Assembly: GCA_009746045.1 (NCBI GenBank)
Contig: RPFO01000026.1
Location: 1,530,150-1,594,149 of the forward strand
Source: Mesostigma viride
Taxonomy: Eukaryota; Streptophyta; Mesostigmatophyceae; Mesostigmatales; Mesostigmataceae
Length of the DNA: 64,000 nt
Direction: 5' to 3'
Shown: positions 3,347 to 64,000 of the stretch, piece after piece
Layout: each line of letters begins with the position of its first letter
Numbering within the stretch: position 1 is the first letter of the stretch
Notes under the pieces: generated by a model
Database searches by the model: none
Seen by the model: only the letters and a program-made list of their open reading frames with translations
Told to the model about the DNA's origin: nothing
Made by a program: the position numbers and the translations under genes

Positions 3347-4144
3347 AGTTACGTTAAATAGTCGGCCGAATTAACTTGGGTGCTCGGAAGTGGTTATTCC
3401 GGGCAAAATAGTGTTCCGGCCCGATTTGCCTCAGGCGGCAAAAGGTTCCGGCACTATTTAACGTAACTAAAACCTGGCCTCGTGGAGGGGGGACGAAGAG
3501 CCCGAGACATCCGCCTAGGCCGCTGAGCACGCACCACTAAATGCGCCGGAGCTGCCTCAGTAAGGATTCGAACCCCTGACCTCCAAGGTGCACAGGTTTT
3601 AGTTACGTTAAATAGTGCCGGAACCTTTTGCCGCCTGAGGCAAATCGGTCCGTAACACTATTTTGCCCGGAATAACCACTTCCGGGCACCCAAGTTAATT
3701 CGGCCGAATTAACTTGGGTGCTCGGACGTGGTTATTCCGGGCAAAATAGTGTTCCGGCCCGATTTGCCTCAGGCGGCAAAAGGTTCCGGCACTATTTAAC
3801 GTAACTAAAACCTGTGCACCTTGGAGGTCAGGGGTTCGAATCCTTACTGAGGCAGCTCCGGCGCATTTAGTGGTGCGTGCTCAGCGGCCTAGGCGGATGT
3901 CTCGGGCTCTTCGTCCCCCCTCCACGAGGCCAGGTTTTAGTTACGTTAAATAGTGCCGGAACCTTTTGCCGCCTGAGGCAAATCGGGCCGGAACACTATT
4001 TTGCCCGGAATAACCACTTCCGAGCACCCAAGTTAATTCGGCCGAATTAACTTGGGTGCTCGGAAGTGGTTATTCCGGGCAAAATAGTGTTCCGGCCCGA
4101 TTTGCCTCAGGCGGCAAAAGGTTCCGGCACTATTTAACGTAACT
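3347..4144. mobile_element. Foldback DNA element built of three palindromes
   Basis: A 798-bp insertion in Q, flanked by the 5-bp duplication GCCAT (3342-3346 and 4145-4149); the uninterrupted site is visible near 28148 and 39212. Both ends are AGTTACGTTAAATAG inverted. It consists of a truncated palindrome (3347-3468), a 132-bp spacer (3469-3600), a 206-bp palindrome (3601-3806, centre 3703/3704), the same spacer inverted (3807-3938) and another 206-bp palindrome (3939-4144). The whole is one giant inverted repeat whose left arm has lost about 84 bp. There is no coding sequence, so it must be moved by a transposase encoded elsewhere. Superfamily not identified. Confidence 0.85.
3807..3938 (+). 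repeat. tRNA-like spacer module inside the foldback element
   Basis: This 132-bp module begins AAAACCTG and ends CAGGTTTT, and occurs inverted at 3469-3600. It contains a perfect Pol III B-box, GGTTCGAATCC (3833-3843), and about 40 bp later GCTCAGCGGCCTAGGCGG, which resembles a tRNA D-arm/A-box. The order is B then A, the reverse of a normal tRNA gene. The acceptor ends that I tried do not pair convincingly, so it is called tRNA-like rather than a tRNA gene. Confidence 0.45.
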
Positions 4145-4216: not shown

Positions 4217-4659
4217 AGTTAGCCTCTAGTCGTGGACATAGGCTAAGTACCAGATAGCAATGTGCTATCTGGGGTTTCGCACGTGTAGGCTCGGTCAGAA
4301 GTCCCGGCTATATGTGATTCGGCAGGCTAGACTATTCGATAGCCGAGTCCTGGTGACGGACGCCAGTACCCAAGTAGGATTGGCGGTACGGCGTCGCCAG
4401 TACCCACTCGGGACTGACATTGAGGTGTCGGATGTTGGACTAAGGTCCTGAGAGTCTAGCAGTGGCGTCGCGCCACTCAGGCTGCACCACAGAGCCCAAC
4501 GGCCACTGTCGGCTGCTCCAGACGTGGCAGCCAGGCAGAGCGTTGCTTGTCGACAATGCTAAATGCCCTTGTGCACGTTGGGTGCGGGGCTTGTGATTTA
4601 TTGTAATAAACACATGCGTTAGGCCATTGAGCATTGAGAGGTCCACTCGTTTATTAACT
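4217..4659 (+). repeat. 5' LTR of the Copia element
   Basis: A 443-bp terminal repeat running from AGTTAGCCTC to TTTATTAACT, matched at 11078-11520 and, inverted, at 644-1086. The short terminal inversion is AGTTA/TAACT rather than the usual TG/CA. A TGTAATAAAC stretch near its 3' end could contribute to polyadenylation. Confidence 0.92.
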
Positions 4660-4690
4660 TGAATTAAAGTCGTTTACCATAGACAAAATC

Positions 4691-7123
4691 ATGGGAGATC
4701 CTATTATGCCAGGCCTGAAATTCAAAAAGAAGCGGATAGATGATGCTGGCTGGCAGACGGTGCCAACAGTAGAGGAGAAGGCTGCGGCCAAGAAAATTAA
4801 AAAAGCAAGAAGGGCGCAGGCGGAGCAGGAACAGCTAGTGGCTAGGCAGCTAGCGACAGCAATGGCTCAGCAAAGCGTCAAGGCAGCCGCCCAAGAGCGG
4901 CAGCTGGCAGCCCTGCAAAAACAGGTAACCTCCTTGGCCGAACAGGCCGAAAAATCTGTTTTTTCTAGCCCAGCTAGCTCGCAAAAATCCGTAAGCAGTA
5001 TGCGGTCCCCCAGCCCTCAGGCAAGCCCCGCTGACCTCCCCGCTAAGGCACCGTCCCAACCTCCTCAGGAGGAGGGCGGAATAGCCAAAAGCGGTGGAGA
5101 ACAAGCGGGGGTGCCGATCGTCCCCTCATCCGCTCAGAAAGCGGGGGGGTACGAGAGGAAGCTGAAGAGGGACGCATACATGTTCAAAATGCGGACCAAG
5201 AAGGTCCCAGGACCCGTCATCGGCAGCATTCAGCTGTCTGATGACGAGGTCACCCTCTCCCCAGGGGTTTCTGATGGGGAGATTGAGATGAATCCACTCA
5301 ATCAGGCGGTCGAACAGGCCGCCGCCCAGTTTGTAGAGGCACGCCGTCTTGCACAGCAAGAGCGGGACCGCAAAAAGACAGCGGCCCGCAACATGACTGC
5401 TGAAAAGCAGCTGGCTGCCATGCAAGCTGGAGAGGTGCTCCATGAGCGCCTCTTCAATGAGCTGGTTGTTGCACAGGGGGACGAGGGGGTCACGCTAACA
5501 GCGGACCAACTCAATTCCCTCCTGTTGCAGCTGACCAAGCTGCAGGAGAAGATGCAGGCAACAGAAACGCCTGCACTCCCTGCACATACCCTCCCCACCC
5601 CTGGCACTGATTTGAGCCAAAGGGTGGTTGGAGGGGCCGTGTCACCAAGGGTGCTGCAGGGCAAGAGCCAGGGCACTGTCCCCAGCTCCCCCAGCAAACC
5701 CCCAAGTGACCCGGATGCCCAGGAGCTCCACCGCCGCAAGGTGGTGGAGAATAAACTCCTAGAGGCCATGATAGCCCGTGAGGGCGGCCTGGCAGCCCAA
5801 GCAGCAGCGCTGCAGCAGCTTGGCCAGGCCAAGGGTTTTCCTACCAGCAGTGGAGTAAGGCAAGGGGAACAAGACCCTGCGCCTGCAGCTGGAACACCAC
5901 CAGCCACTGCACTAGCACAGCAAGCTGGAACACAACCACCTTCTGCGGAGGCCCAGCAGACTGCACCCACACCAGGGCAGTCAGATAAGAGCAAGGCGGT
6001 GGCAAAAGGGACCCCAGTGGACCCAACCCCACCCACCCTTAAGGGGGACGTCCAAGAGCTGCTTGCCATACTCACGGCACAGCTCAAGACCATGGCCACC
6101 AACCCCATGGACGACCTGTCGCGCACCCAGCTGGATGGCCTCCTGGCCAGTATCTCCCAGCTGGAAAGGGGCAGGGCGAACATGGAGGAGGCTGATCTTC
6201 AACAAGCAGTCAAGACTTTCTTGGCTGAAAAGAAGGACCCGGTCAAAGGTACGTTTAACCCAAAACAAAAAGAATCTAAAATAGAAATCCCTGGCTTACC
6301 TGAGGGTTACACCCAGGAACAGGCCAAGGAATTTTTGTTTAGCCTGAACTACTGTTTTGAGTCTCTGAATGTCCAGAACTGGTTCAGTGCCTTGCGTGCA
6401 TCCACCACCATCCATAGGTCAGCCCCAGCCATTAAAACCTTGGTCCAGATTTACCAAGAAAAGGCTGGGACACCTAACCTAGCAATTGCATTGTGGCCAG
6501 CCTTCATGGATGAGCTTAAGCACTTGCTGGTGGATAGGACACAGTTTGAATCCATCCGTGGTTTCAACTGGCTTAATGCTTACCAGGTCAACAAGCAAGA
6601 CTATGCCACTGATTGCAAGAATTATAGGTTGGCTGTAGAAAAGGACCCTGATCTCAGGGGTCTGCCTGCTAGCTACCTGCTGTATTCATGGTTGTCAAAT
6701 GCTAACCTGGACAAAGCTGTGTACGCCACTGTGGTTGCAGGTCTCAAACCTCTGTGGAACGATTTCCGGGCGGGGATGAACCATATCCAAGACTGCCTGA
6801 CTCCCCTGGCTATAGGTGCTCCGTCTGCAACCCCAACCCCCAAGGTCCAACAGACCCAAGGGAAGGGGCAAGGAAAAAAGCGCCAGCTAGGGGGGCAGCA
6901 GGGCGGCCAGTCCAAGAAGGCCAAGGGCAACCAGCCCCAAGGCCAGCCGGGACAGCCTGCTCAGCTCAAGCCAAACCAGTGGAGGCGGCCCACCCCCCCA
7001 CACCTGCCCCACCCACCCCTGCACCCACTGCTCAGCCCCCCCATGCAGGTCCCAAGAACAAGTGCACCCGGTGTGGCACCAAGGGACACCAGCGGGCGGA
7101 CTGCAAGTGGAACCCCGCAGTAG
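4691..7123 (+). CDS. Gag (capsid) polyprotein of the Copia element
   Basis: An 810-residue ORF starting at the first ATG downstream of the 5' LTR (31 bp after it). Residues 1-60 are very basic. Residues about 30-70, 215-290 and 350-400 are rich in Ala, Gln, Glu and Leu and look coiled-coil, separated by Pro/Ser-rich linkers. About 530-740 is a compact region with Trp and aromatic residues (for example NYCFESLNVQNWFSALRAST) that should be the capsid domain. The 0-frame C-terminus is a Gln/Gly/Pro/Lys tail without a zinc knuckle; the knuckle is encoded in the overlapping pol frame. It should assemble virus-like particles in the cytoplasm. Identification rests on position and composition, not on a recognised Gag signature. 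Confidence 0.85.
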   Translation: MGDPIMPGLKFKKKRIDDAGWQTVPTVEEKAAAKKIKKARRAQAEQEQLVARQLATAMAQQSVKAAAQERQLAALQKQVTSLAEQAEKSVFSSPASSQKSVSSMRSPSPQASPADLPAKAPSQPPQEEGGIAKSGGEQAGVPIVPSSAQKAGGYERKLKRDAYMFKMRTKKVPGPVIGSIQLSDDEVTLSPGVSDGEIEMNPLNQAVEQAAAQFVEARRLAQQERDRKKTAARNMTAEKQLAAMQAGEVLHERLFNELVVAQGDEGVTLTADQLNSLLLQLTKLQEKMQATETPALPAHTLPTPGTDLSQRVVGGAVSPRVLQGKSQGTVPSSPSKPPSDPDAQELHRRKVVENKLLEAMIAREGGLAAQAAALQQLGQAKGFPTSSGVRQGEQDPAPAAGTPPATALAQQAGTQPPSAEAQQTAPTPGQSDKSKAVAKGTPVDPTPPTLKGDVQELLAILTAQLKTMATNPMDDLSRTQLDGLLASISQLERGRANMEEADLQQAVKTFLAEKKDPVKGTFNPKQKESKIEIPGLPEGYTQEQAKEFLFSLNYCFESLNVQNWFSALRASTTIHRSAPAIKTLVQIYQEKAGTPNLAIALWPAFMDELKHLLVDRTQFESIRGFNWLNAYQVNKQDYATDCKNYRLAVEKDPDLRGLPASYLLYSWLSNANLDKAVYATVVAGLKPLWNDFRAGMNHIQDCLTPLAIGAPSATPTPKVQQTQGKGQGKKRQLGGQQGGQSKKAKGNQPQGQPGQPAQLKPNQWRRPTPPHLPHPPLHPLLSPPMQVPRTSAPGVAPRDTSGRTASGTPQ
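6874..6880 (+). promoter_or_regulatory. Candidate -1 ribosomal frameshift site A AAA AAG
   Basis: In the gag frame the codons are GGA AAA AAG, giving the canonical X XXY YYZ heptamer A AAA AAG. Slipping back one base puts the ribosome at 6880 in the pol frame, which is open from 6754 to 10713. The site lies within the 370-nt gag/pol overlap (6754-7123). The following 60 nt are G/C-rich and could form a stimulatory stem. Function is inferred from sequence and phase. Confidence 0.75.
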
Positions 7124-10100
7124 GCGACGTGGACCTCTGCTTCGGTTGCAAGCACCCCCGCCATCTGCCCCCCGGCACGTGGTGCGACCGGCAGGACAAG
7201 GCTCCAAAAGGATGTACGTCCTCACAGCACGCCTATGTGGATTTATATGATCTCATTATCATTGGGGATAAAGACAAGGGACTGCTAGATTTTGAGGCAG
7301 CTCAGAAAATCTCCTCCACGTATAATGTGATACTGCCCTACCTCAAAGCTCTTACCCCAGCTGCTGTTGACACAGTAGACTTAAGGGAACTAGCAACCCA
7401 GCTCCACATAGCCATGGGTCATGAGGTGGTGGCAGAAAAGATTGCCAGAAGAGCAGGAGGTTCACGACTCAGGAATGCTGTCAGGTTGGCTAGAAAACAC
7501 TGCCAGCAATGTCAGTTCCATGGCCCAAAACCTCCCAAATGGCATGTCGCAACACCACCCACCCAAAGGGGAATAATTGTGGGTGATGTCGTGCATATCG
7601 ATGGTGAACAATATCTGATCCTAAAAGACACATGGTCCAGATTCACTGTCATGGAACCCCTACCTGGAATGGCTAAAGAGCAACTGCGTGCAGCACTTGT
7701 GATAGCATTGCCCAGATTCTACCCAGTTGACACTATACTGCTTGATCAACAGTTTAGCTGTCTGGCTGAGTGTGAAGGATGGGATGCTAATATTGAGATT
7801 GCTGGATTGCAAGATCATGAAGGGCAGGGTGTCATTGAAAGAACCATCAGGTCAGTCAAAACTTTAGTGGCGAAATCCACTGACCTGAAAGCCACATCTG
7901 GAAGCTATGCTGACAGAGCACTGTGGTGCAGTGAAATCTGTGCTACACTTAACCTTAGACCTGTGTTGCATGCACCATGGGGGGAAATCCTTCCCATTGG
8001 CTTACAGGCAGGTGTGTACCCTCCAGAGGTATTAGCTCTGTATAACACAGTAAGAGCTAAAGTGGCTGATAAGCTAGCTGAAAAGGACATAACACACCCC
8101 AGAACAGTATTCCAACTGGGTGAACAAGTCCTATATTTCAAAGAAACCAAACATGGCAAGACAGGCATGTGGTATGGTCCGTGCACTGTTCTAAGAATGA
8201 CCAAAAAAGGAAAAAATATGGATATTCGAAGTTTGGAAACAGGGAGAAAACACAGGGTGAGCAGTCATAGAGTTAAGAAGTATTTCCCTCCTTTGGCAGA
8301 CGTGCCAGGGGAAGAGTCCTTGAACATGGATTCCCTCCTTAACTCTGGTGAGCAAGCAGAACCACCCAGCATTCCAACACCAGGAGCTGATGATGGCACT
8401 ACCACACCCTCTGTCATTCCTCCACCCCTCAGTGAGGTACGTGTCACCCCACAACCTGGTGTAAGTCCCTCTGGGCAGAGTTCAACCAGGCATGAGGTAC
8501 CAGAGCAAAACAAAGGCAATCCAGCTGAGTTCAAATCCAAGCTAGAAAAAGCCCTGGCAGCTCTGCATAAGGCTCACAAGAGCAAGGCTAAACAAGCCTC
8601 AGGTTTGGCCAAGGTCTCTGCTGTGTGCTCCGATTATAGCCAGGAATCCTGCATCCTAGCTGTGGACACTCAGGCACAGGTCAGTGTGATCAGTGCACAA
8701 GCCATTCCTGGTCTGCAACTTGCACCCTCACCATGGACACAGGTGCAAGATTTTTCAGGCAAAACAACCTTAGATGTGTTGGGTCAAGTAATGATCCCCA
8801 TACTTGGCATCCAGACACCTTTCCAGGTAGTGGAAGGGTACATGGGCAATGCTTTGTTGGGAGAACCCTTTATCTCTTACCCAGGTGTCACCATCACTGC
8901 TAGCCAGCTGCGTGTGACTGGGGTAGGAGCCATTCCCTTGGATCACTACAAGATTCCATTGTCCCAACTGGTTCATGGATTAGATGCCTATATCAAGGCC
9001 ATTAACATCAAATATGGGCCAGGTGAAATCCCTGACCTAGAGAAAAAGGTGCACAATCAAAGGCCACACCCGCAGTCCTTTGGGGTTGGAAAGTGGGACT
9101 TAGCCATGCACTCTCCTCACAACTATGATGCTCTAATCCAACAATGCAAAACACAAAAAGGGTTTCAAAAATGGATCCAAGCCATTAGGCACCAAGCCCG
9201 CGAAGAGTGGGTGCTGCCAAACCCTAAGCATCCTGACTATAAGCCACCTGTCACTCCTGTCTGGGAAATTCCAGAAGGTGCCAAAAAGTTGAGACTCAAG
9301 TTTGTGCTAAAACACAAGGCACAGCCAGTAGGCTCACCTATATATCATGCTAGGCCATGTGTGACAGAATTAAAAGGCATGTCAAAACTGTCCAAGGGTG
9401 AACTCTACACTCCTGGGCTGCAGCAAACATCCCTCAGGATACTGCTCTCTGTCTTCCTCCACCATCTCAATGCTGGCCAAGATTATGCCTGCAAAGCTAC
9501 TGATATCAAAAGGGCTTTCCTTAGAGGGGACCCTGATAAAGCGCAAGATGTGTGGAAGGGTCAGGTCTATGTGGTTCCCACCCCTGCTGCATGGGCACAT
9601 GATATTGATGAGCCATATCTACTCCTAAATCTAGGGGTGGAAGGTTTGCAAAGTGCTCCCACTATCTTCAGAAAATCAGCAGAAGAGGTGTTCAAGAAAC
9701 TTAATGCCACTTATGATGATCTGGACCCTTGTCTCTTTGCTGTGCCCACACCCTCTGGCTTGCTCCTGTTTGTGTGGCATGGTGATGACCAACTGATTTG
9801 TGGACCAAGAGCTGAAGTTGACAAGTTCATTCAGCAGGTTCAGCAGTCATATGAGATTGGAAAGCAGACAGAGCTGGGGCCAGAACCCCTACAGTTCTGT
9901 GGCATAATGCTAGCACTGGAAGAGCAACAGGAACAGTGGGTGTGTACTCTATCCCCGCCTGCCCAGTACTTAGAAGAATGCCTAGAGCTGCTTGATATTC
10001 CGTGCATTCCTGCTCACATGTGTGCTACTGTCAAAGGAAAATTAGGGTGGCTGAGTGCTATCTGTGCACCTCATCTGGCAGTGGTCAGCAGGATTGATGA

Positions 10101-10713
10101 CACAGTATTACAAACCATGAAACCTAAGGATCTCCAGAAGCTACTAAAGGCTGGACCTTCCCTTGTCATTCATCCACTCAACCTCATGGAAGATATTCAC
10201 ATTAACTGTCTGATGGACAGCTCCATGGAGAGTAGGGTAATAACAAAAATGGATGCCAGGGAGGCTGGGGTGTTCTTCCTTACCAACAAGGGAGACTATA
10301 TGTCCATGGTGTCGTGGTACAGCAGATTGCATCGCAGAAAAGCTGTTGGCAGTAACTCTGCTGAGTGCCGTGCTGTGGTGTCTGCTGTGCAGCATGCTCG
10401 ATCCCTTCAGCACATACTAACCTGGTTGCAAACTCAGGCTGGCAGCAAGGCTGATGTGCATGCTCACTTACACACTGACAGTCAGTCAGTCATTAGTTTC
10501 CTTAACAAGAAATCTGTGACTGCTGCTGTGCATACTGATCTGGACTGGGTGATTTTGAAACAGGAAACAAGCTATTTTTCCAGCTGGCAGCATCTGCCAG
10601 ACGAGGAGAACCTGGCTGACGCATTGACCAAGATTCCGTCATTAGCAGCAACCCAGTACCAGCTTCTGTGTGATGCAATGAATCCCTATCTGTCTAGTCA
10701 GACAAATGGATGA
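6880..10713 (+). CDS. Pol: zinc knuckle, integrase, protease-like, reverse transcriptase, RNase H
   Basis: The open frame runs from 6754 (1319 codons, no ATG needed) and is probably entered by frameshift at 6880. Numbering from 6754: CCHC knuckle at about 104-117 (C-x2-C-x4-H-x4-C) and a second C-x2-C-x4-H-x6-C at 129-144; integrase HHCC (H218, H222, C250, C253) and core D283, D331, E362; protease-like AVDTQAQVSVIS at about 636-647 with LLGEPF at about 701; RT at about 800-1050 with ATDIKRAFLRGD and the catalytic WHGDD at about 1008; RNase H at about 1148-1295 ending LADALTKIP. Two oddities: the protease active site reads DTQ instead of DTG or DSG, and it follows the integrase instead of preceding it. 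RT and RNase H clearly place it in Ty1/Copia. Confidence 0.92.
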   Translation, partial: APARGAAGRPVQEGQGQPAPRPAGTACSAQAKPVEAAHPPTPAPPTPAPTAQPPHAGPKNKCTRCGTKGHQRADCKWNPAVGDVDLCFGCKHPRHLPPGTWCDRQDKAPKGCTSSQHAYVDLYDLIIIGDKDKGLLDFEAAQKISSTYNVILPYLKALTPAAVDTVDLRELATQLHIAMGHEVVAEKIARRAGGSRLRNAVRLARKHCQQCQFHGPKPPKWHVATPPTQRGIIVGDVVHIDGEQYLILKDTWSRFTVMEPLPGMAKEQLRAALVIALPRFYPVDTILLDQQFSCLAECEGWDANIEIAGLQDHEGQGVIERTIRSVKTLVAKSTDLKATSGSYADRALWCSEICATLNLRPVLHAPWGEILPIGLQAGVYPPEVLALYNTVRAKVADKLAEKDITHPRTVFQLGEQVLYFKETKHGKTGMWYGPCTVLRMTKKGKNMDIRSLETGRKHRVSSHRVKKYFPPLADVPGEESLNMDSLLNSGEQAEPPSIPTPGADDGTTTPSVIPPPLSEVRVTPQPGVSPSGQSSTRHEVPEQNKGNPAEFKSKLEKALAALHKAHKSKAKQASGLAKVSAVCSDYSQESCILAVDTQAQVSVISAQAIPGLQLAPSPWTQVQDFSGKTTLDVLGQVMIPILGIQTPFQVVEGYMGNALLGEPFISYPGVTITASQLRVTGVGAIPLDHYKIPLSQLVHGLDAYIKAINIKYGPGEIPDLEKKVHNQRPHPQSFGVGKWDLAMHSPHNYDALIQQCKTQKGFQKWIQAIRHQAREEWVLPNPKHPDYKPPVTPVWEIPEGAKKLRLKFVLKHKAQPVGSPIYHARPCVTELKGMSKLSKGELYTPGLQQTSLRILLSVFLHHLNAGQDYACKATDIKRAFLRGDPDKAQDVWKGQVYVVPTPAAWAHDIDEPYLLLNLGVEGLQSAPTIFRKSAEEVFKKLNATYDDLDPCLFAVPTPSGLLLFVWHGDDQLICGPRAEVDKFIQQVQQSYEIGKQTELGPEPLQFCGIMLALEEQQEQWVCTLSPPAQYLEECLELLDIPCIPAHMCATVKGKLGWLSAICAPHLAVVSRIDDTVLQTMKPKDLQKLLKAGPSLVIHPLNLMEDIHINCLMDSSMESRVITKMDAREAGVFFLTNKGDYMSMVSWYSRLHRRKAVGSNSAECRAVVSAVQHARSLQHILTWLQTQAGSKADVHAHLHTDSQSVISFLNKKSVTAAVHTDLDWVILKQETSYFSSWQHLPDEENLADALTKIPSLAATQYQLLCDAMNPYLSSQTNG

Positions 10714-41258: not shown

Positions 41259-42877
41259 CATATACTGAGCTGCATGTGACTGTGTGTGACGATCCACCCC
41301 GCCATGTGGCCCCTCGCCCTCGAGGCTGCCATGTGCTCCGCTAGCTTCCCATGAACATGGCCCTGGCAGCGCTAACTGCAAATCCCAACATATTAAATTC
41401 TTCTAGTTCTTGCCCAGATTAACAAAGCTTTCATCGCGTGCAGCAGCAACCATGCCGTGGCTCCGGAGCAGGCAGGACCGGCACTTCGAGGAGATCAGAT
41501 GCAGGCCGACGATGCAGTTGCATGCAGGCCGACGAACAAATGATAAACTCCGGCCACCTGCTTTGCTAAATCCATGTGCTTCGTCTAGCCAGCATCCACA
41601 TTTTATGACATGCAGACCAGAAGAATAAATACCCAAAGACCTTATGTCGGATAAACAAACCGATCTGACTCGGCAAAGCATTAGCAGTACCTCCTGCACA
41701 GTGCGGCCGAAATATCAGGACGTGATATAGCATGCGCTTCCCAACCGCGCCGTTGCCTGGGCGTGAATTTAACCATTCATTACCAATTGACTTATGAGTA
41801 CGTAGCTATCGATAGCCAAGCTGGCTAGTTCCTGCGCTTGTATGTTGTAAATAACGCAATCGCTAGGGTGCTATTCCGTGCTTTCGCCATGCACACGTAA
41901 GGCAAAATTGGGTAGGAATTCCTATGTATGCACTAAGTGCTCAGTCAGCACGTCGGCTGCTCAGTGCTCGCCCCTCTGTGACTCCCTACCTACCGCCACG
42001 TTTCAATTTGCAATCCATGTGCTACAGTTCAGACCTGGTTCAGACGGGTTAGTAGAGATACGAAAGCATGTGATCAATCTCACTGTCCGTAGTTTCAAGT
42101 CGTTGCAATGTTCCACTGTCATCACAGCCGCGCAAAAACAGCCTTGTTCCGCACTGAAACGCCAAAAAACCGCGGAAAATACGGCATTATACGGTATTAT
42201 ACGTCATTATGCGTCATTATGCGCTAAAACGAATTACGTATGAAATATTATACGCTGTCATTAAGCGCATACCGTATTATACCGTATTATACCGTATAAT
42301 ACGGCGTATGATTTTACATTACGATTGCAGCTGTGGCATGCCTTTGGCATGGAGGAGACTGGGGGTCTCTGCCCTTTCTCCTGTAGTGCACACACAGGGA
42401 TTAAAAGCACTTCGGTGCTCCGTGACTCCCCAACGGGAGCACGAGTTTAATTAATTAATTAATTAATGGAGGTGCGCCCACGCCATGCCGATCCGTGTCG
42501 TCATACATCGTCCTCGCAGTCGGGAAGCCAACTGCCGAGCAGCTTGAAGCGGCCTGAAGGAGGGTAGTTGACCTCGGCATCGTCTAAGAGGCGGAGTGTG
42601 GGTGGGGGCCCTGCCATGCCGAGGGCCAGGGCCTCCGTTTTGGGGCTGATTTCTAGACCAACCGCCGGAGCCTCGAGCGCCAGGCAGTCCAGCCAAAGTT
42701 GGGCAGACTCCGGCTTCTCGATGAGCGTGATGTCGTCGGCATAAATGAGGTCAGCTAGTAAATTCTGCTTGTTAGTCGGCCCCCCTTCCCCAAGCTTGTT
42801 CGTGATCGCTAGGCCAGGGGCACGGCCTGCAATGCTAGCAAAGCGAGCACGTGCCTGGCGCATTGTAGCATAAGCTA

Positions 42878-43143
42878 TTATATAATATAAATTAAATTAA
42901 ATTAAATTAAATTAAATTAAATTAAATTAAATTAAATTAAATTAAATTAAATTAAATTAAATTAAATTAAACTAAATTAAATTGAATTAAATTAAATTAA
43001 ATTAAATTAAATTAAATTAAATTAAATTAAATTAAATTAAATTAAATTAAATTAAATTAAATTAAATTAAATTAAATTAAATTAAAGTAAAGTAAATTAA
43101 ATTAAATTAAATTAAATTAAATTAAATTAAATTAAATTAAATT
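42878..43143 (-). repeat. (AAATT)n pentanucleotide array, tail of LINE S
   Basis: About 53 units of AAATT with a few substitutions (ACTAAATT, AAGTAAAG). It directly follows the LINE hairpin in the minus orientation, so it is read as an exceptionally long reverse-transcription tail or one that expanded after insertion. Confidence 0.85.
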
Positions 43144-43178
43144 ATAACATGCCTCCATTGGGAGATCATGTAGCACAT

Positions 43179-43495: not shown

Positions 43496-44044
43496 TAGTA
43501 GCACATATTCCTTGATGGGTGGTGGAGTGGAGAGAGCCGCGTAATCGGACTATCCTAACGCTAATCTATCTAGTCTATCGAAAAATCCTAACTACCCTAC
43601 TCATCAAAACGCCTCCTCCTCTTGGGGGGAGGTGGCTTGCCCACAGGGTCGGGCGTGTGAGCCTTGACAATCTTCTGCGCCACCGCGTCTTGTTTTGCAT
43701 GGCAGTCCAAAGAAGGGAGAGAGAGTGGATTAAAGTAAAAATTAAATTAACCCCTAAATGGGCAGAAATACTGCCGATGCATCGGCTGTAACTTCACAAT
43801 TTTGCAAACCAGATGCCATCCAACCCACCCATATCCAATGGCTGTCCTTGGGGGCCAAGCATGTCCATGAGTTGCCCTTCGGGTTGGTATATCACAACCT
43901 TACATATATATTAAAAATATAATTACTTACAGCAGAGTGAAATCACTCAAACCAAAGCAAACGCCCAGCTATAAACCTATATACAGAGCCATGTCAAAGC
44001 TCTATACTACGATAAGACCAATGGAAACGCCTAACGGGAGGAAC

Positions 44045-45180
44045 CTAATAGCCCTGCTGCACCGCAAAATCAGCCCGCGTACGGCGGAGCATGATGTCAG
44101 CCATGGCCCGAGTCAGCGCCACCGACAAGCGCTGACGCCAATATGACGTCCAGGTCCGCGCCGACCATGGGGCCCGCTGGCCCTCCAGGTCCAGCCGGTC
44201 CTCCCGGAGCCGGCAACACTCCTTGAAGAAGGCGGAGGTCAGGGGCCCCATGGCCCCAAACTCCTCCAGGACAAAGGGCACCACACGATGGTGCCCGACG
44301 TCGCCGTAGGCCAGGAGCTTGGCCCGCTCCGCCCGGTCCGCCGTGTAACCTGCCGTGAGGGAGGCCCCAGCCACGTGGCTAAGAGCCAAGGGCCGCGCCA
44401 CCGAAACGTCAATAAGCAGATGCCGGCCACCCCCCTCAAAGTCCAGCACCACGATGTCAGGCCGGTGGTTGGGGGAATAGAAGGCAGCGCCATCCGCATC
44501 CTCGGACCGGATGTTCGCGTGGGGGAAAACCGACCGAATCATGGCGAGCACCACCGTCAGGAGGACAGTGTGCAAATACAAATACCAATTCTGATTCTGT
44601 TGGCCCCCCATGCAGGCAAGGTAGTGAGTCCCCGTGGGATCCAGCGGCTGCCCACAGCTACCACAAGGCCGCCCGGCCGGAACAAGAGGCTGCGGGGCAA
44701 ATAGCTGGTGCCGGAGCGCCACCGAGTAGTGGCTGGGAGCCAAGGCGAATGGGGGGGCCATGGGAAGAGCACGAAGGTACGCCGAGCCCACACTCCGCAA
44801 GGAAAGCGAGAACAGCCACGCACGTCCCTGGGCGTTGAGGTCCGCGAAAAGAGCAATCCAATCAGCCGTGTGCAGAATACCCGCGTAGGTTTTCTGGTGT
44901 TTATCGATGACGCGAGCAGGGAATGCGGCGGGAGATTGAACGGAGGCGACCGAGGGAGTGCCGCGAGGGAGGTGGCGCTGTACCGCCTGAGCGGCACGGA
45001 CGGGAGAACAGGCCTGCTGGATCTCAGCATAGGCCTCCTGGATGGCGGTGACGAAGGGCAAAGGGCTGCTGGGGTCCAGGAGGTCAGGCGCTGCCGTTGC
45101 CAAAAGGGGCAGGAGCCGGCAGCTTTCCGCCCACGACTGAGCGACGGAGCCCAAAAAGCTGCTGGGGCCAGCCGGGCGGC
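44045..45180 (-). other. CCHC knuckle and restriction-like endonuclease domain
   Basis: Within the frame 45415-44045: CGSCGQPLDPTGTHYLAC (zinc knuckle) near 44630-44680, then RPDIVVLDFEGGGRHLLIDV near 44410-44475, where PD and the later D form the PD-(D/E)xK core. R2-type enzymes use this domain to nick the target. It is continuous through 1371 bp. Confidence 0.82.
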
Positions 45181-45599
45181 ACGAGTCAGACCGCAGCCAC
45201 CCATCCGTGCAGGCAGGGAGGCAATGCGAATAGCATGTGGCGGGAGGTCGGGGCCCGGGACCAGCTGCGCCAAGGCCGACTGGATGCGTTCGTCGTGGCC
45301 CTCGGCGGCCAGCCGGACCTGAGCGGAAGAGCGCCCCGGAGCCAGTGAACGACGCGAGGGTGAGCGCAAAACCACAGAAGCAGACCCTTGGTCTGCGAAT
45401 CATGAAGGCGCGCAATCAAGGGCAGTACCTCAGTGCGTGCCTCGAGGGCGGCCCGCAGAGCATCGATGACAAACGCGGGGTCGCCAACCGGAACGCCGAG
45501 GACATCCAACCCATGGAGGCGCTCGTCCCGGCCCAAGAGCTGGGGCGGAAAGCCGGAGCAATCACCTTGGGGCGAGTACACCGCGCACTTGGCAGGGTC

Positions 45600-46215
45600 A
45601 ACTGGAGGTTGATGTCGGCCACCGCGGTCTGCAGTGCCAGCAGAGCCGCGGTGGTGTCCGGCACAGGGCCCAGAAGGTAGATATCATCCAAGTAGGCCTG
45701 AATAGCGACCGCCGGGTGGGCAGCATGGACCGCTTGGAGGCAACCCTGGAGGGGGGCGGCAAAGTACAGGGGTCCCAGGGGGTCCCCTTGCTGGGTGCCC
45801 GACCGCGACAGCAGGCCGCCGCGAGTGCCGTCCTCCATGATGTGAACCAGTTGGCCGGGCTGGCCGTAGCACACGGCTGTCCAAGCGTACAAGTCCTCGA
45901 AGGACTCCATGACGGCCGCAAACATGCTGGCGCGGGACAGACTGTTGAACGCGTTGTGGCAGTCGACCTTGACGACAGCGTGGGTGGGGTGGGCCTCGAG
46001 GTAGGCCTGCACCGAATGGATGAGGATATCCGCCCCGCCTGGAGTCGTCACCCCCAGCTGGGCCGCCACCGAGGTCTCACCCGCTGCGAGGGGCGGGCAG
46101 AAAAAGGCACGGAGCTCGGGCGCCTTTTGGCGGCAGATCACTTTGCCCACGAGCTTGCGGAGCACCTCACCGCAGGCGATCGGGCGCACCTTGCCCTCGG
46201 GGGGGGCAAGACACC
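45600..46215 (-). other. Reverse transcriptase domain
   Basis: Read on the minus strand: GKVRPIACGEVLRKLVGK (motif 1/2, about 46140-46195), VVKVDCHNAFNSLSR (motif A, about 45935-45978), SGTQQGDPLGPLYF (motif B, about 45760-45805) and AYLDDIYLLG (motif C, about 45667-45697). All catalytic aspartates are present. The GxQQGDPLGP form of motif B is typical of the RLE clades rather than L1 or RTE. Confidence 0.88.
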
Positions 46216-47632
46216 CTTGAGCAGAGCGAGGAGGCGAGCGCCCGCTAACCACTCGCGCGCAGCGGGAGGAACGCGACCAGCCGCCAGGTCAATGAGGGTG
46301 TCAAAGAGAATGTCCTCGCCCCCATGCCCCACCAGGACCTCCAAGTGCTCGTAGCGCCAGCCCGACGGCCCGGTAGAGGAAGCCCGCGGGACCGCACGCA
46401 TCACCTCCAGGAAGCAGTCGCGGTCCAGCCGGAGGGGGGCCGGCAGGGGGTCCGGCACGGGCAGCTGGAATCCGGGCTCCGCAGGGTGAAGAGCCTCCAA
46501 GGCCGCCAGGGTAGCCGCATTGGCGGGGGCCAGCTTGGCCATTTCCAAGCGGGTCATGGCCCGGCTGAGCTGCCCCTCGCGGACGAGGCGGATGACGTCG
46601 GCGGCCACCCGCTCGAAGTTGACCTCCCCCGACAGCCGGGCCGTGCGCGGGGGCGGCACGCCAAACAGCCCCTCCCAGTCCCCCTGCAGAAAGCGTCGGC
46701 AACGGGCAATAACCGCACCCTGGAGGCCGCGCACACCACGCCCGAGAGGGGTGAGGAGCAGGCGGGGGGTCACCATGTGCAGTTTAAAGCCCAGCGGGTC
46801 GTCCGGAGCGGCGTGCATGCGCCGGAGAGAAACGATTGCACATTGCGCGAAAAGGCTACGCGCGCGGTGGGGGAGGTCGGTCAGGGTAGACGTCGGGTTG
46901 ATGGCGCATGCATCCCAGGGAACCGTGTCAAGCCAACGCCAACTGGCCGAGTAGTCGGGCGGCGGGGGCTGGGAGCCGGTGGGAGCCGAGGCGGGAGGGG
47001 GGAGGGGGCCGGGACTGCTGGCCGGTTGAGGGGCCGTTGAGCAACACAGGCGCGCGCGTGCTGAGCGCGCCCGTGAATGGAGTACACCCGCTGGCAGTGA
47101 GCTTCCGGGCACCGGTAACAGCTCATGGCCTGCAGATCCGCCGCGCCGAGATCGGGGTGCACAGCGCGAAGGTGCTGGCAGAGGAGGTTACGGTTGTGGA
47201 ACACACCAGCACACGGGGACCCCGTGGGAAGCAGCACGGCACACCGGTGAAGGCCGTCGGCGGGCGCTGAGTGGCGGGGAGCGGCGCCAGCAAAGGCAGG
47301 ACGTGGGGCCTGCGGCGTCTCCCCAGCCGGGCCGGCAGGCGCGCGCACCACGACCCGACCAGCGCCCGGCAGCCCGCCGGGGCCACGGAGGAGGCAGTGC
47401 CCACCGGGGAGACCCCCAGCGGAGGGGGATCGAGAACGCCGGCGCCCCTCCCAGGGGGACTCGCCAGCGCGCCCGCGACCACCCCAGGCCCCGGCAACGA
47501 GGCCGGGGGCGGCGGCCGAGGGGTCGGGGAGGCAGCTGGCCCCGGGGCCCGGTGGGGACCCGGCAGGGGACCCAGCGAGACCGGGGGCGGGCCGAGAGGA
47601 AGCGCAGTCCCAGGGGGCGGCACAACAGCCCG

Positions 47633-47761
47633 GCACAACGGGCAGCGCGGCACGGAGTGGAGCAAGCTGCGCGCGATGCACGCTTGATGGAATGTGTGGC
47701 CGCACGCGGGCAGGCGACACAAGCCATCCCCCGGCCGGAAGGGCTCAAGGCAGATGGCACA
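47633..47761 (-). other. RING-H2 finger in the RLE LINE
   Basis: C-x2-C-x15-C-x1-H-x2-H-x2-C-x11-C-x2-C, with CAICLEPF at the start and CPLC at the end, fits RING-H2 perfectly. Such domains usually recruit ubiquitin-conjugating enzymes. C2H2-type fingers follow (HLRAVHP at about 47150-47200 and CYRCPEAHC at about 47085-47130), as in R2-like N-termini that bind target DNA. Confidence 0.8.
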
Positions 47762-48918
47762 GGAGCCCGACTCGGGGTCGTCCCCCTCCAGAAGGGACCG
47801 GACATGAGGGGGGGCGGGTCCCAGCCGGCCTCCCAGCAACCCGGGAGAGCAGCAATCTGGGCGCGCGAGAGGATGCCGACCGGTTGGTCAGCCGCGGGGT
47901 GCCATTCGTGCGGGATGCCTGCCAACTCCAGGATGTCGTGGAGGAAGGCAGAAACAGGCGTCCCCGCGGTTAGGGGCTGGGCGCGCCCGGCCGAGTCCAC
48001 CAAGATGGCCTGGCCGCCCTGAACCGCGATGGGGGCCCCGAACTCCACACGCAGCATGGCGGCCTGCGCCAGGCTGAGGGAGGTGATGAGAAAGCCCCCA
48101 CTGGCAACCGGGCCGGGAGGCGGGGCCTGGGCGTCCAAGAAGAGGCGAAGCTGCCGCGGGGACATGAGGCCCAGGTCGGCGCCGCCCGCGAGGTAGGCCG
48201 CCCGCACCGAGACCTGTGCGTCTCGAGCCACCGCCGTGACGAACTCGACCACCTCCTGACCCACCCGCTCGTCCAGGGAAAGCAGCTCTTCCTGCCGGGC
48301 GGCCGGGAGATGCCACGGCAGCCGGCAGCCGGCGTGATATCCTTCCAAGACATACCCCCAAAGAGTCGAGGCCGTCACCGGGGGGCGGCGGAAAGAAATG
48401 TCGCCCGCACCTGCGCAACTAGGGCCAGGAAGGCCGGGGGCCTAGGGAGCGAGGGGAAGGCGGCCTGGAACCCGACCGCGTCCAGCAACAAAGGGCAGTA
48501 CGCCCAAGAAAAGGTGGCGCGGCCCACCACGCCGACAATGTGCGAGGGCGGCCACGAGGTGAACGCGTGGGCCCGGGGGCCGCCGTCCCACGCGGCAAGG
48601 ACGGGGGTGGCGGCTGGGTGGCCAACCGCGGCCGGGGGAAGGGAGGCCAGAGCGTCGGGGAGCGAGGGGCCGGGGGCGGGCGCCGGGGTCGCCAGGCCCG
48701 CCGGGGGTCGGCCGGGCCAGCCCAGGCGACAGCGCCGCGCCCCCGTCGGCGGGGCCAGGCGACGGGTGGGGCCCCGGGGCCGAGGGCGCCAGGGCCCGAG
48801 CAACGGCGGCCCCATCGGGCAGGCCACGGCCCGCCCCGAGGGCCTCGGCAGGGGGGCACACGGGGCAGGGGGCCGGAGCACCCAGCGGGGAGGGCAGCCC
48901 GGGGGCCCGCCGGGGGGG

Positions 48919-49053
48919 ACAGCGCGGGCACGTCCAGGAGCCCGGCGGGACCCGGTAGAGCCGGGGAGTAAGACACTGCAAGTGCCACCCGGAATTGCAA
49001 GCATCACAAACTAACATGTGGTGCCCGCGGTGCCCGCTCCGGCAGACCTCGCA
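48919..49053 (-). other. PHD finger in the RLE LINE
   Basis: Numbering from the ATG at 49206: C52, C55, C67, C70, H75, C78, C93, C96, with the conserved W two residues before the last pair (SWTCPRC). This is a complete C4HC3 PHD signature. PHD fingers read histone H3 tails, so the domain could direct the element to a chromatin state. Confidence 0.82.
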
Positions 49054-49314
49054 GACCAAGGAGGGGGAGACCGGGGCGCCCGAGCCCCCCGCAGCCGGGT
49101 CGCCCACCTCCGCAAGAAGGGCCGCAAGCCGAGAGGACCGCCGAGGCGCCAACCGGGGAGCGGGGGAGCCGTTGGGCGAAGGGGGTCGTGGGTCGTCCAT
49201 GAACAATCAGGGCAGGCGTGGCAGCCACCGAGGGGGGGGGCGGGGGGTGTGGGGGGCGGAGCCCCCCACGCGGGGGGTTTGGGGGGCGGCAGCCCCCCAA
49301 CGCGCTGCGGTCGC

Positions 49315-51393
49315 GGTACCGCCTGCCGTCCGGCACTTTGAAGCCCGCCGGTGCTATAATTCCTATCGTCCACGCATGTTTTCCCCTGCCTCAAACCGCA
49401 CGTTGCATTTAAATCTGGAGCCCAAAATTCACTGAAAACGTGTGCCAGCCGGTAGCAAACTGGGCCAAGCTGCCACGGAATGGTGGTACCGCCTGCCGTC
49501 CGGCACTTTGAAGCCCGCCGGTGCTATAATTCCTATCGTCCACGCATGTTTTCCCCTGCCTCAAACCGCACGTTGCATTTAAATCTGGAGCCCAAAATTC
49601 ACTGAAAACGTGTGCCAGCCGGTAGCAAACTGGGCCAAGCTGCCACGGAATGGTGGTACCGCCTGCCGTCCGGCACTTTGAAGCCCGCCGGTGCTATAAT
49701 TCCTATCGTCCACGCATGTTTTCCCCTGCCTCAAACCGCACGTTGCATTTAAATCTGGAGCCCAAAATTCACTGAAAACGTGTGCCAGCCGGTAGCAAAC
49801 TGGGCCAAGCTGCCACGGAATGGTGGTACCGCCTGCCGTCCGGCACTTTGAAGCCCGCCGGTGCTATAATTCCTATCGTCCACGCATGTTTTCCCCTGCC
49901 TCAAACCGCACGTTGCATTTAAATCTGGAGCCCAAAATTCACTGAAAACGTGTGCCAGCCGGTAGCAAACTGGGCCAAGCTGCCACGGAATGGTGGTACC
50001 GCCTGCCGTCCGGCACTTTGAAGCCCGCCGGTGCTATAATTCCTATCGTCCACGCATGTTTTCCCCTGCCTCAAACCGCACGTTGCATTTAAATCTGGAG
50101 CCCAAAATTCACTGAAAACGTGTGCCAGCCGGTAGCAAACTGGGCCAAGCTGCCACGGAATGGTGGTACCGCCTGCCGTCCGGCACTTTGAAGCCCGCCG
50201 GTGCTATAATTCCTATCGTCCACGCATGTTTTCCCCTGCCTCAAACCGCACGTTGCATTTAAATCTGGAGCCCAAAATTCACTGAAAACGTGTGCCAGCC
50301 GGTAGCAAACTGGGCCAAGCTGCCACGGAATGGTGGTACCGCCTGCCGTCCGGCACTTTGAAGCCCGCCGGTGCTATAATTCCTATCGTCCACGCATGTT
50401 TTCCCCTGCCTCAAACCGCACGTTGCATTTAAATCTGGAGCCCAAAATTCACTGAAAACGTGTGCCAGCCGGTAGCAAACTGGGCCAAGCTGCCACGGAA
50501 TGGTGGTACCGCCTGCCGTCCGGCACTTTGAAGCCCGCCGGTGCTATAATTCCTATCGTCCACGCATGTTTTCCCCTGCCTCAAACCGCACGTTGCATTT
50601 AAATCTGGAGCCCAAAATTCACTGAAAACGTGTGCCAGCCGGTAGCAAACTGGGCCAAGCTGCCACGGAATGGTGGTACCGCCTGCCGTCCGGCACTTTG
50701 AAGCCCGCCGGTGCTATAATTCCTATCGTCCACGCATGTTTTCCCCTGCCTCAAACCGCACGTTGCATTTAAATCTGGAGCCCAAAATTCACTGAAAACG
50801 TGTGCCAGCCGGTAGCAAACTGGGCCAAGCTGCCACGGAATGGTGGTACCGCCTGCCGTCCGGCACTTTGAAGCCCGCCGGTGCTATAATTCCTATCGTC
50901 CACGCATGTTTTCCCCTGCCTCAAACCGCACGTTGCATTTAAATCTGGAGCCCAAAATTCACTGAAAACGTGTGCCAGCCGGTAGCAAACTGGGCCAAGC
51001 TGCCACGGAATGGTGGTACCGCCTGCCGTCCGGCACTTTGAAGCCCGCCGGTGCTATAATTCCTATCGTCCACGCATGTTTTCCCCTGCCTCAAACCGCA
51101 CGTTGCATTTAAATCTGGAGCCCAAAATTCACTGAAAACGTGTGCCAGCCGGTAGCAAACTGGGCCAAGCTGCCACGGAATGGTGGTACCGCCTGCCGTC
51201 CGGCACTTTGAAGCCCGCCGGTGCTATAATTCCTATCGTCCACGCATGTTTTCCCCTGCCTCAAACCGCACGTTGCATTTAAATCTGGAGCCCAAAATTC
51301 ACTGAAAACGTGTGCCAGCCGGTAGCAAACTGGGCCAAGCTGCCACGGAATGGTGGTACCGCCTGCCGTCCGGCACTTTGAAGCCCGCCGGTT
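49315..51393 (-). repeat. 170-bp tandem array, 12.2 monomers
   Basis: Units start with GGTACC at 49315 and every 170 bp up to 51355; the last is partial. By eye all copies are identical. Each contains GTGCTATAATTCC and ATTTAAAT. The array lies between the leader of the RLE LINE and its 5' target duplication, so it belongs to the element and not to the host. Position and form resemble the promoter monomers of mouse L1. Confidence 0.9.
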
Positions 51394-52954
51394 GAAACCC
51401 TTACATATATGCAGGGTAGGCCATGTATAACTGCCGTCAAAGTCAGGGGGGTCAAGACGAGCGTTTTCATTTTTGGTAGAATGTGCATTGTGAATTATGT
51501 TATGAGAGCTAGGCACCTACCACTTCAGGGATGATAAACAATTAGTTGCTGAACAGTTTGAGCCATTGGGGTCATCATTTGGGTGGGTATACCAGCAGTT
51601 ACACCCAGTACAGCCCATAGGGGTACCGGTGGTAAAAAGCAACCAAGGGGGTAGGGGTGGGCATACTACCTACTAATACCTACTAATATGGCCCCCAACC
51701 ATGCCACACAATACATTTCCCTTCCACAATGATGGGGAAACATAACTGCATCATCACACTGCCCTTACATGGCACCTATGTGCAGGTGCCACCTTGTCCA
51801 TGCACGTAGGTAACGTGGTACGGATACCCTACGCAAGGCATGCATTCTAGGAGGCAGCCACCAACAAACTAGTGATTTTAAGCCTATTTCAGCCTGCCCT
51901 AGCAAGGATAAACTAGGCCTAAGCTGCTATAGCTTGCCAGGTGATGGCCAGCACACCTGGTGGCACATGCTGACAATGGGAAGCTTCTACTCACCGGTTA
52001 CATGCTTGATGATGCCACAGAGACCAGCCAACTGCCTCACACTCATGCAATATGTGTGTGGGAAATGTATAACAAACATATATGGAGGTATTCAAACCCA
52101 TACAGACTCTAAAACTTATCACCATCACCCTGTGGCAGGTCAACTGACTGGTGGAAGCATCTAAGAAGGGTGTTTTAGAAAGGGGCCAGGCCAGGGTCAA
52201 GAAAGAGCATGAATAATGCAAAAAGAATGTGCTACACAAGCTAGAACGTATATATGAACGTCAAACATCGATAGGAAAACGATGCTTAAGCTTTACCAGG
52301 CATGGATGGCGTTACCTTGGCCCAGGCGGTGGCCGCAAAATGGCGCATTTCGGCACGCCAAAGTTGTGCAGCATGGTCGCTGGATTCGGCGATTTCTGGC
52401 CACCCTTGCACGTTTACGACTACTATGTATCATAAAAAGTACAAAGAAACCAATATATCCTTTAAAATACGCCGGAAAGGTATTGCTGTCAACGTTTCTA
52501 TCGTCCGGCCTGATCGCAGTTTTTTCCAGCAAGAACGCTGCCGACACCTATCAAATGGCATTCCCGCGAACCAAAAATTGGCCTGTATCATCTTTAGGAC
52601 GTATAAAATCAATTTCCTGAGTTTGGTCAGAAAATTCGAACGAAAACGTAAATGCCATGCGTGGGCGCAAGCCGCCATGGCCAGGTCGTCGTTTTCCGGA
52701 ATGCACGTTGTACGCGAAAAAGTACCCTGACCCCTTGTACTTTGACCGACCAGAACACCTCTATAACTTTGTCAGAAGTATGCAAACCCTAGTACCATGC
52801 TGTGAGGAAAATTATAAACTTTCGATCTTCTCAGCTAAACTTTTCCTAATTCTCAATAGTTTTCGCGGCATTTGGTCCCCCGAGAAGGGGCCGACGTGTC
52901 GGCTGTAACTCAGTTTTAGGCGGAAAATCGGCAGCCAGACCATTTAGGGGTTAA

Positions 52955-63517: not shown

Positions 63518-64000
<483 letters not shown>

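Follow-up and report, generated by a model that had tools for sequence, protein, structure and literature searches.

A young family of restriction-like endonuclease LINEs in the alga Mesostigma viride bears both a PHD finger and a RING-H2 finger

How a long interspersed nuclear element (LINE) chooses its chromatin and how it evades the control of its host are largely open questions. They are raised by a locus of Mesostigma viride, an alga of basal streptophyte position, at which a LINE carries a PHD finger and a RING-H2 finger beside its reverse transcriptase (RT) and restriction-like endonuclease (RLE). The locus lies in a stretch of 64,000 nucleotides (contig RPFO01000026.1 of GenBank assembly GCA_009746045.1, positions 1,530,150 to 1,594,149), called here the window, in which all coordinates are counted. 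Do the two fingers belong to a LINE family or to one aberrant copy, and could they be part of the protein that carries out integration? A first-pass annotation of the window had proposed such an element at 43910-51398, with the PHD finger at 48919-49053 and the RING-H2 finger at 47633-47761, and these limits are all correct; the array of 170-bp tandem repeats at the 5' end (49315-51392) is absent from it. The element is organized as follows (aa, amino acids; TSD, target-site duplication; UTR, untranslated region).

51398 to 43910, minus strand: LINE insertion, flanked by 12-bp TSDs
51399 to 51410: 5'-side TSD, reading CCTTACATATAT on the plus strand
43898 to 43909: TSD on the 3' side of the element, CCTTACATATAT
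49315 to 51392, minus strand: 5'-terminal array of 170-bp tandem repeats (12.2 copies, 100% matches)
49177 to 49200, minus strand: opening codons of the PHD frame, MDDPRPPS, read from the sequence
48919 to 49053, minus strand: PHD finger, C4HC3, from its ligands and Pfam
47816 to 48572 (lower limit approximate), minus strand: middle region of about 250 aa with no recognized domain, in frame with the PHD in copy L043 and with the RING in copies L038 and L046
47633 to 47761, minus strand: RING-H2 finger, C3H2C3, from its ligands and Pfam
47157 to 47243, minus strand: C2H2-like finger, C-x9-C-x12-H-x4-H, pattern found by eye
47046 to 47111, minus strand: C2HC-like finger, C-x4-C-x11-H-x3-C, pattern found by eye
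45416 to 46288, minus strand: RT core (RVT_1), with VDCHNAFN at 45944-45967 and AYLDD at 45683-45697
44612 to 44665, minus strand: CCHC knuckle, from its motif
44405 to 44467, minus strand: RLE motif HRPD...D, of the PD...D type
43910 to 44044, minus strand: 3' UTR with its end near TTTTTAATATATAT, the final bases being indistinguishable from the duplicated ATATAT target

The element is an RLE-type LINE, i.e., a non-long terminal repeat (non-LTR) retrotransposon. It possesses an RT followed by a CCHC knuckle and then by a PD...D endonuclease, as the first-pass annotation had it, and its dispersed copies show TSDs and 5' truncation, several of them starting inside the coding part. The RT matches RVT_1 (PF00078) with E 3.6e-9 and 37.1 bits, against a Pfam cut-off of 29.6. 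When a profile of 28 rows was compared with solved structures, the RT-RLE part matched R2 (E 1.6e-38), and the fold predicted from RT to RLE resembles that of R2; used as a single sequence, the same part gave no match in the PDB at E 1.

The PHD finger has all the C4HC3 ligands and scores above the Pfam cut-off of its family (PF00628; E 2.3e-10, 40.8 bits versus 24), its nearest solved relatives being the PHD fingers of CHD4, WSTF, ATXR5, and KDM5B, several of which bind histone H3. Ahead of its third Cys the finger has a basic loop (HRGHH), at the place of an acidic one of the GGE type in CHD4. In readers of trimethylated lysine 4 of H3 (K4me3), such as BPTF and ING, a Trp two residues before the His forms a cage; because the PHD of the element has no such Trp, it is unlikely to read K4me3.

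Similarly, the RING-H2 finger has the C3H2C3 ligands and the profile score of the RING-H2 E3 ligases (PF13639; E 4.3e-12, 46.5 bits versus a cut-off of 27.3), so that the PHD, RING, and RVT_1 profiles, against which the first-pass annotation proposed to check the element, all match. The nearest solved RINGs are those of RNF165/ARK2C, Arkadia, RNF13, and EL5. The Ile that follows the first Cys-x is kept in the finger of the element, and so is the Arg behind the last Cys, which has a linchpin role. In the RING of RNF165/ARK2C, a Trp after the sixth ligand contacts the ubiquitin-conjugating enzyme (E2); the element has Ser instead. From these residues, ligase activity is possible, not assured.

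The same annotation had also spoken of C2H2 fingers: two finger-like patterns are indeed present between the RING and the RT, but one is of C2HC type, and both were recognized by eye, with no Pfam match of their own. Regarding the middle region, a likeness to an OTU protease was seen by eye (a Cys at the start of a helix, late beta strands), but no test gave support to it, as no OTU family of Pfam matched the region at E 5, no PDB sequence matched it at E 10, and the best Foldseek E was 0.61, obtained using a poor single-sequence model (pLDDT 42.1).

Evidence that the two fingers belong to a family comes from the other copies. The genome searched consists of 439.9 Mb in 2,243 contigs, in which the RT stretch retrieved 1,195 first-look candidates, 40 of them scored and all printed at 100% identity. 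The copies examined are 40 insertions, including that of the window, picked for their similarity to the window copy and covered by about 8 kb around 20 of them and by short pieces of the others. A complete PHD occurs in 30 of these 40 insertions and its protein sequence is identical in all 30; the DNA is exact in 29 and has two silent changes in L033. In a 31st insertion, L048, the truncation falls inside the first codon of the PHD. Thirty-two insertions have the RING, identical in every one, so that no copy with a complete finger has lost a ligand; such a loss is what the first-pass annotation had named as fatal to its claim. Both fingers are complete in 28 of the 40 insertions, and the other 12 miss one or both owing to truncation, rearrangement, or a piece too short to reach them. 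Genome-wide, an exact pattern beside the PHD was found at 223 places and one just before the RT at 545 places, and the reversed-pattern controls gave none in either case. PHD, RING, RT, and RLE are hence borne by one LINE family and not by an aberrant copy.

This family is young and present in high copy number, and it has probably been active recently. Its youth follows from the near identity of the full-length coding parts, which could be aligned over essentially their whole length in 9 of 20 copies, with 99.63-99.85% identity. Two copies, L033 and L035, are rearranged: a 5' piece has diverged (96.6% identity in L033, 97.9% in L035), and the remainder is nearly identical; the diverged pieces hint at a subfamily. 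Within that of L033, two synonymous and no replacement changes fall inside the PHD, against one synonymous and seven replacement changes outside it, and in that of L035 no change falls inside the PHD, with one synonymous change, one replacement, and some one-base gaps outside. Selection on the PHD is suggested at most, two copies being far too few to claim it.

Whether the domains form one protein is a more delicate matter. In the window copy, PHD, RING, RT, and RLE are spread over several frames with stops between them, and the earlier description of the element as complete thus applies to the insertion, which is bounded by its 12-bp TSDs, but not to its reading frame, which is broken. Between copies there are a few substitutions, as well as length differences of one base. 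At five sites, a base missing in the window copy is present in 11 of 14, 16 of 18, 15 of 20, 19 of 20, and 20 of 20 of the covering copies; this extra base occurs in two versions, and other differences sit in runs of C. The published assembly of M. viride NIES-296 (442 Mb, 2,363 scaffolds) is described, in the accessible text of PMC6947507, as made from PacBio RSII data with Canu, Pilon with Illumina data, and optical maps. Caution is due here, as the frames of young repeats may be broken in polished assemblies. Because the window copy lacks bases that occur in two versions elsewhere, as would happen if the consensus of a repeat lost a base that is polymorphic, we infer that its frame breaks come at least partly from assembly or polishing at polymorphic and homopolymer sites of the repeat.

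Longer frames are indeed found in other copies. In L043 one frame of 485 aa opens at the PHD start and extends across the middle region, its last part being off frame; L038 and L046 have a 956-aa frame that runs from the middle region through the RING and the two fingers to the start of the RT; in L046 the first 96 residues of this frame precede the join with the middle region and lie in another frame than the PHD. Of the 20 fetched copies, 12 have RT, CCHC knuckle, and RLE together in one frame of 748 aa. Two junctions then remain, and they were followed at the genome-wide pattern sites, where lengths refer to the first 100 places by contig order and were read from coordinates, the letters being at hand for 80 of the 100 on the PHD side and for none at the C-run. 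The PHD-side site has the in-frame length in 12 of the first 100 listed (of 223), and the C-run before the RT core (window positions about 46196-46203) is one base longer, and in frame, in 16 of the first 100 listed (of 545), judged by length only. The difference at the C-run is due either to undercalling or to real slippage. In the relatives P0001, P0003, P0004, and P0021 the region of the C-run is read through in one frame, and the frame indicated by the GC content of third codon positions changes close to these two sites in L046, and more often in L050. Taken on sequence, a single protein of about 1,700 aa from PHD to RLE is strongly suggested, not shown.

The target of the family is clearer. 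Nineteen copies have a readable 3' end (the 20 fetched and that of the window, minus two cut short), and in 14 of these a TSD-like repeat of 9-20 bp was found on the 5' side of the element, none being accepted in the other five. ATATAT occurs near the start of 13 of the 14 repeats; elsewhere in the window, with the element excluded, it is rare (26 of 56,499 positions). The method of detection favors AT-rich matches, and the p value calculated for this preference should be discounted accordingly; nine of the 14 repeats are at least 12 bp long, and because eight of these nine bear ATATAT, the preference is not only a matter of short AT-rich ends that happen to match. The family inserts at ATATAT tracts. 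At the other end, the number of 170-bp repeats varies between copies, and a 69-bp part of this repeat has at least one exact match in 12 of 20 copies, from 1 to 15 each. Mouse L1 elements have tandem monomers at their 5' end, and by analogy the 170-bp repeats may be a renewable 5' promoter.

From these elements, we consider it likely that the family is a young, probably recently active RLE LINE whose protein, of about 1,700 aa if it is one, would consist of the PHD, an uncharacterized region, the RING-H2, two C2H2/C2HC-like fingers, the RT, the CCHC knuckle, and the RLE. During integration, the RLE would nick the ATATAT tract, the element RNA, which ends near AAUAUAUAU, would pair with the nicked ATATAT, and the RT would prime at the paired end, i.e., by target-primed reverse transcription; such pairing is the natural model of priming because the 3' end of the element lies near TTTTTAATATATAT. 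More tentatively, the PHD might dock the particle on chromatin by way of H3 tails, and an E2 recruited by the RING might ubiquitinate a host factor or the own protein of the element. A further-reaching proposal, which we regard as rather unlikely, would make this the first known retrotransposon whose integration protein has both a chromatin reader and an E3 ligase, with the PHD steering it to H3 tails near ATATAT, a TATA-like tract, and the RING ubiquitinating histones, or silencing or repair factors, at the nick. A young high-copy family with PHD and RING beside RT and endonuclease would allow a direct test of histone reading for targeting and of ubiquitination for counter-defense.

Several observations weigh against a single multidomain protein with functional fingers. 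Alignment to 5d0m places a Ser in the RING of the element where RNF165/ARK2C has the E2-contacting Trp. This replacement, together with the basic loop of the PHD in place of the acidic type of CHD4, is what one would expect if both fingers were structural zinc modules only, cross-brace fingers serving to bind nucleic acids or as a scaffold, with neither histone nor ubiquitin function; moreover, zinc fingers are common in RLE LINEs according to the accessible parts of PMC4640811 and PMC12278014. On the other hand, both fingers score well above curated cut-offs as canonical members, the solved sequences nearest to them come from chromatin proteins and E3 ligases, and the linchpin Arg is kept, so that a purely structural role is a serious contender and still not the one that we favor. 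In addition, no relative compared from outside the M. viride genome has both fingers, the available sequences of the close relatives beginning at the RT or shortly before it.

The remaining adverse points concern the frame. The whole protein was seen in one frame in no copy, and the 20 fetched copies, of which several are 5'-truncated, have no frame longer than 956 aa; the out-of-frame length of the C-run occurs in 38 of the 38 insertions read, though these were chosen for likeness to the window copy, with a run of eight C in all 51 loci read from them; and out-of-frame lengths account for 84 of the first 100 listed places at the C-run and for 88 at the PHD-side site. The family could thus be genuinely fragmented, with real frame breaks and copies mostly dead or mobilized in trans, PHD/RING and RT being separate proteins or being joined by slippage at the C-run. 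We find this doubtful, in view of the in-frame lengths present at both sites among the listed places, of the relatives that read through the start of the RT, and of the gaps of the window copy at sites with two alleles in other copies, as polishing in repeats predicts. Finally, capture of host PHD or RING genes by the window copy alone, which the first-pass annotation had named as another way to fail, is excluded: nothing was found in its favor, and 28 of the 40 insertions have both complete fingers in the same positions, with 223 genome-wide matches to the PHD-side site and none for the reversed control. An older, family-wide capture is likely. The single protein with PHD and RING upstream of RT and RLE is retained as the preferred reading.

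Other repeats are present in the window. A (TAAAT)n array of 51 units (42888-43144) adjoins the element, and a 131-aa frame on the minus strand (42501-42896) has a YADD motif and resembles the RT of another LINE, with no Pfam match at E 0.001. On the plus strand, positions 4658-10713 hold two long overlapping frames of 821 and 1335 aa and are likely a Copia-like LTR retrotransposon, because RVT_2 is found in the 1335-aa frame (E 7.7e-9). A 338-bp tandem repeat lies at 3362-4144 and a GAGAGGGG array at 63580-63990.

How does the family compare with known systems? R2 sits in 28S ribosomal DNA. Solved R2 proteins (Bombyx, Taeniopygia, Platysternon) have about 15% identity to the element, in which PHD and RING are extra, and in the RT tree the R2 rows form a separate supported group (100/99), outside of which the element falls; P0037 and R2 meet by long branches, and their depth is unsure. 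The 19 readable 3' flanks differ after ATATAT, which does not fit an R2-type insertion, as judged from the flanks alone, without comparison with ribosomal DNA. Members of the CRE clade (SLACS, CZAR, CRE1) are likewise RLE LINEs with repeat regions and zinc-finger-like parts, and, as stated in the accessible part of PMC12278014, their insertions occupy one place in spliced-leader RNA genes and bear a poly-A tail, whereas the present family takes ATATAT and ends near TTTTTAATATATAT, its flanks varying from copy to copy, with no poly-A seen. The distant matches to the element include Diplonema proteins, one of which its source labels "SLACS reverse transcriptase"; they are the only rows on the CRE/SLACS side of the RT tree, where the fork is open.

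The closest RT-RLE relatives are P0001, P0003, P0004, P0005, P0006 (Cymbomonas), P0007, and P0021, with 36-51% identity (42% for P0021), and all but P0005 fall with the element in one starred clade (97/92). The best named protein match, P0002 (86% identity over 57% of the query), is a M. viride gene model, Mesvir1/5833, in which an Enkurin domain is joined to the endonuclease end of the element; this join reflects either an artifact of the gene model or a gene into which the LINE has inserted. With residues 100-700 of the RING-side frame as query, no protein matched at E 1e-3 among a capped set of 7,992 candidates preselected by shared words, an uninformative result, and a scan of viral contigs revealed no relative of the element. 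Three proteins with an RT of the same broad group, at 25-30% identity, have one extra part each N-terminal to the RT, and not PHD and RING together: RING-like in P0032 of Symbiodinium (E 0.0057, below the cut-off; a long branch of unsure placement), PHD-like in P0027 (E 0.039, below the cut-off), and Chromo in P0029 (E 1.7e-11). Single chromatin- or ubiquitin-type modules thus appear to recur in this broad group, and the M. viride family appears to be the only one with both among the relatives compared. If the steering and ubiquitination proposed above were true, these single parts would depict a lineage of RLE LINEs that repeatedly recruits such modules.

The CR1/L2 LINEs, of the Jockey superfamily, differ from the element in this classification and use an APE-type endonuclease. 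They share with it the presence of a PHD, which is already known in their ORF1, the first open reading frame, and for which an epigenetic-reader role has been proposed from other proteins; in the accessible text of PMC4120745, from 2014, the authors were aware of no functional work on the PHD of LINEs, and RING has no occurrence in the main text of that paper. RLE LINEs with extra domains are known as well, namely a Ulp1 protease in nematode NeSL and in one Utopia family, and RNase H in oomycete Utopia, as reported in the accessible part of PMC4640811. A literature search, with Repbase and most subscription journals outside its scope, found no RLE LINE with PHD or RING and no LINE with RING. 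Against this background of RLE LINEs with extra domains and of PHD fingers in LINEs, both known, the union of PHD and RING in one RLE LINE, not found described elsewhere, is what the M. viride family adds.

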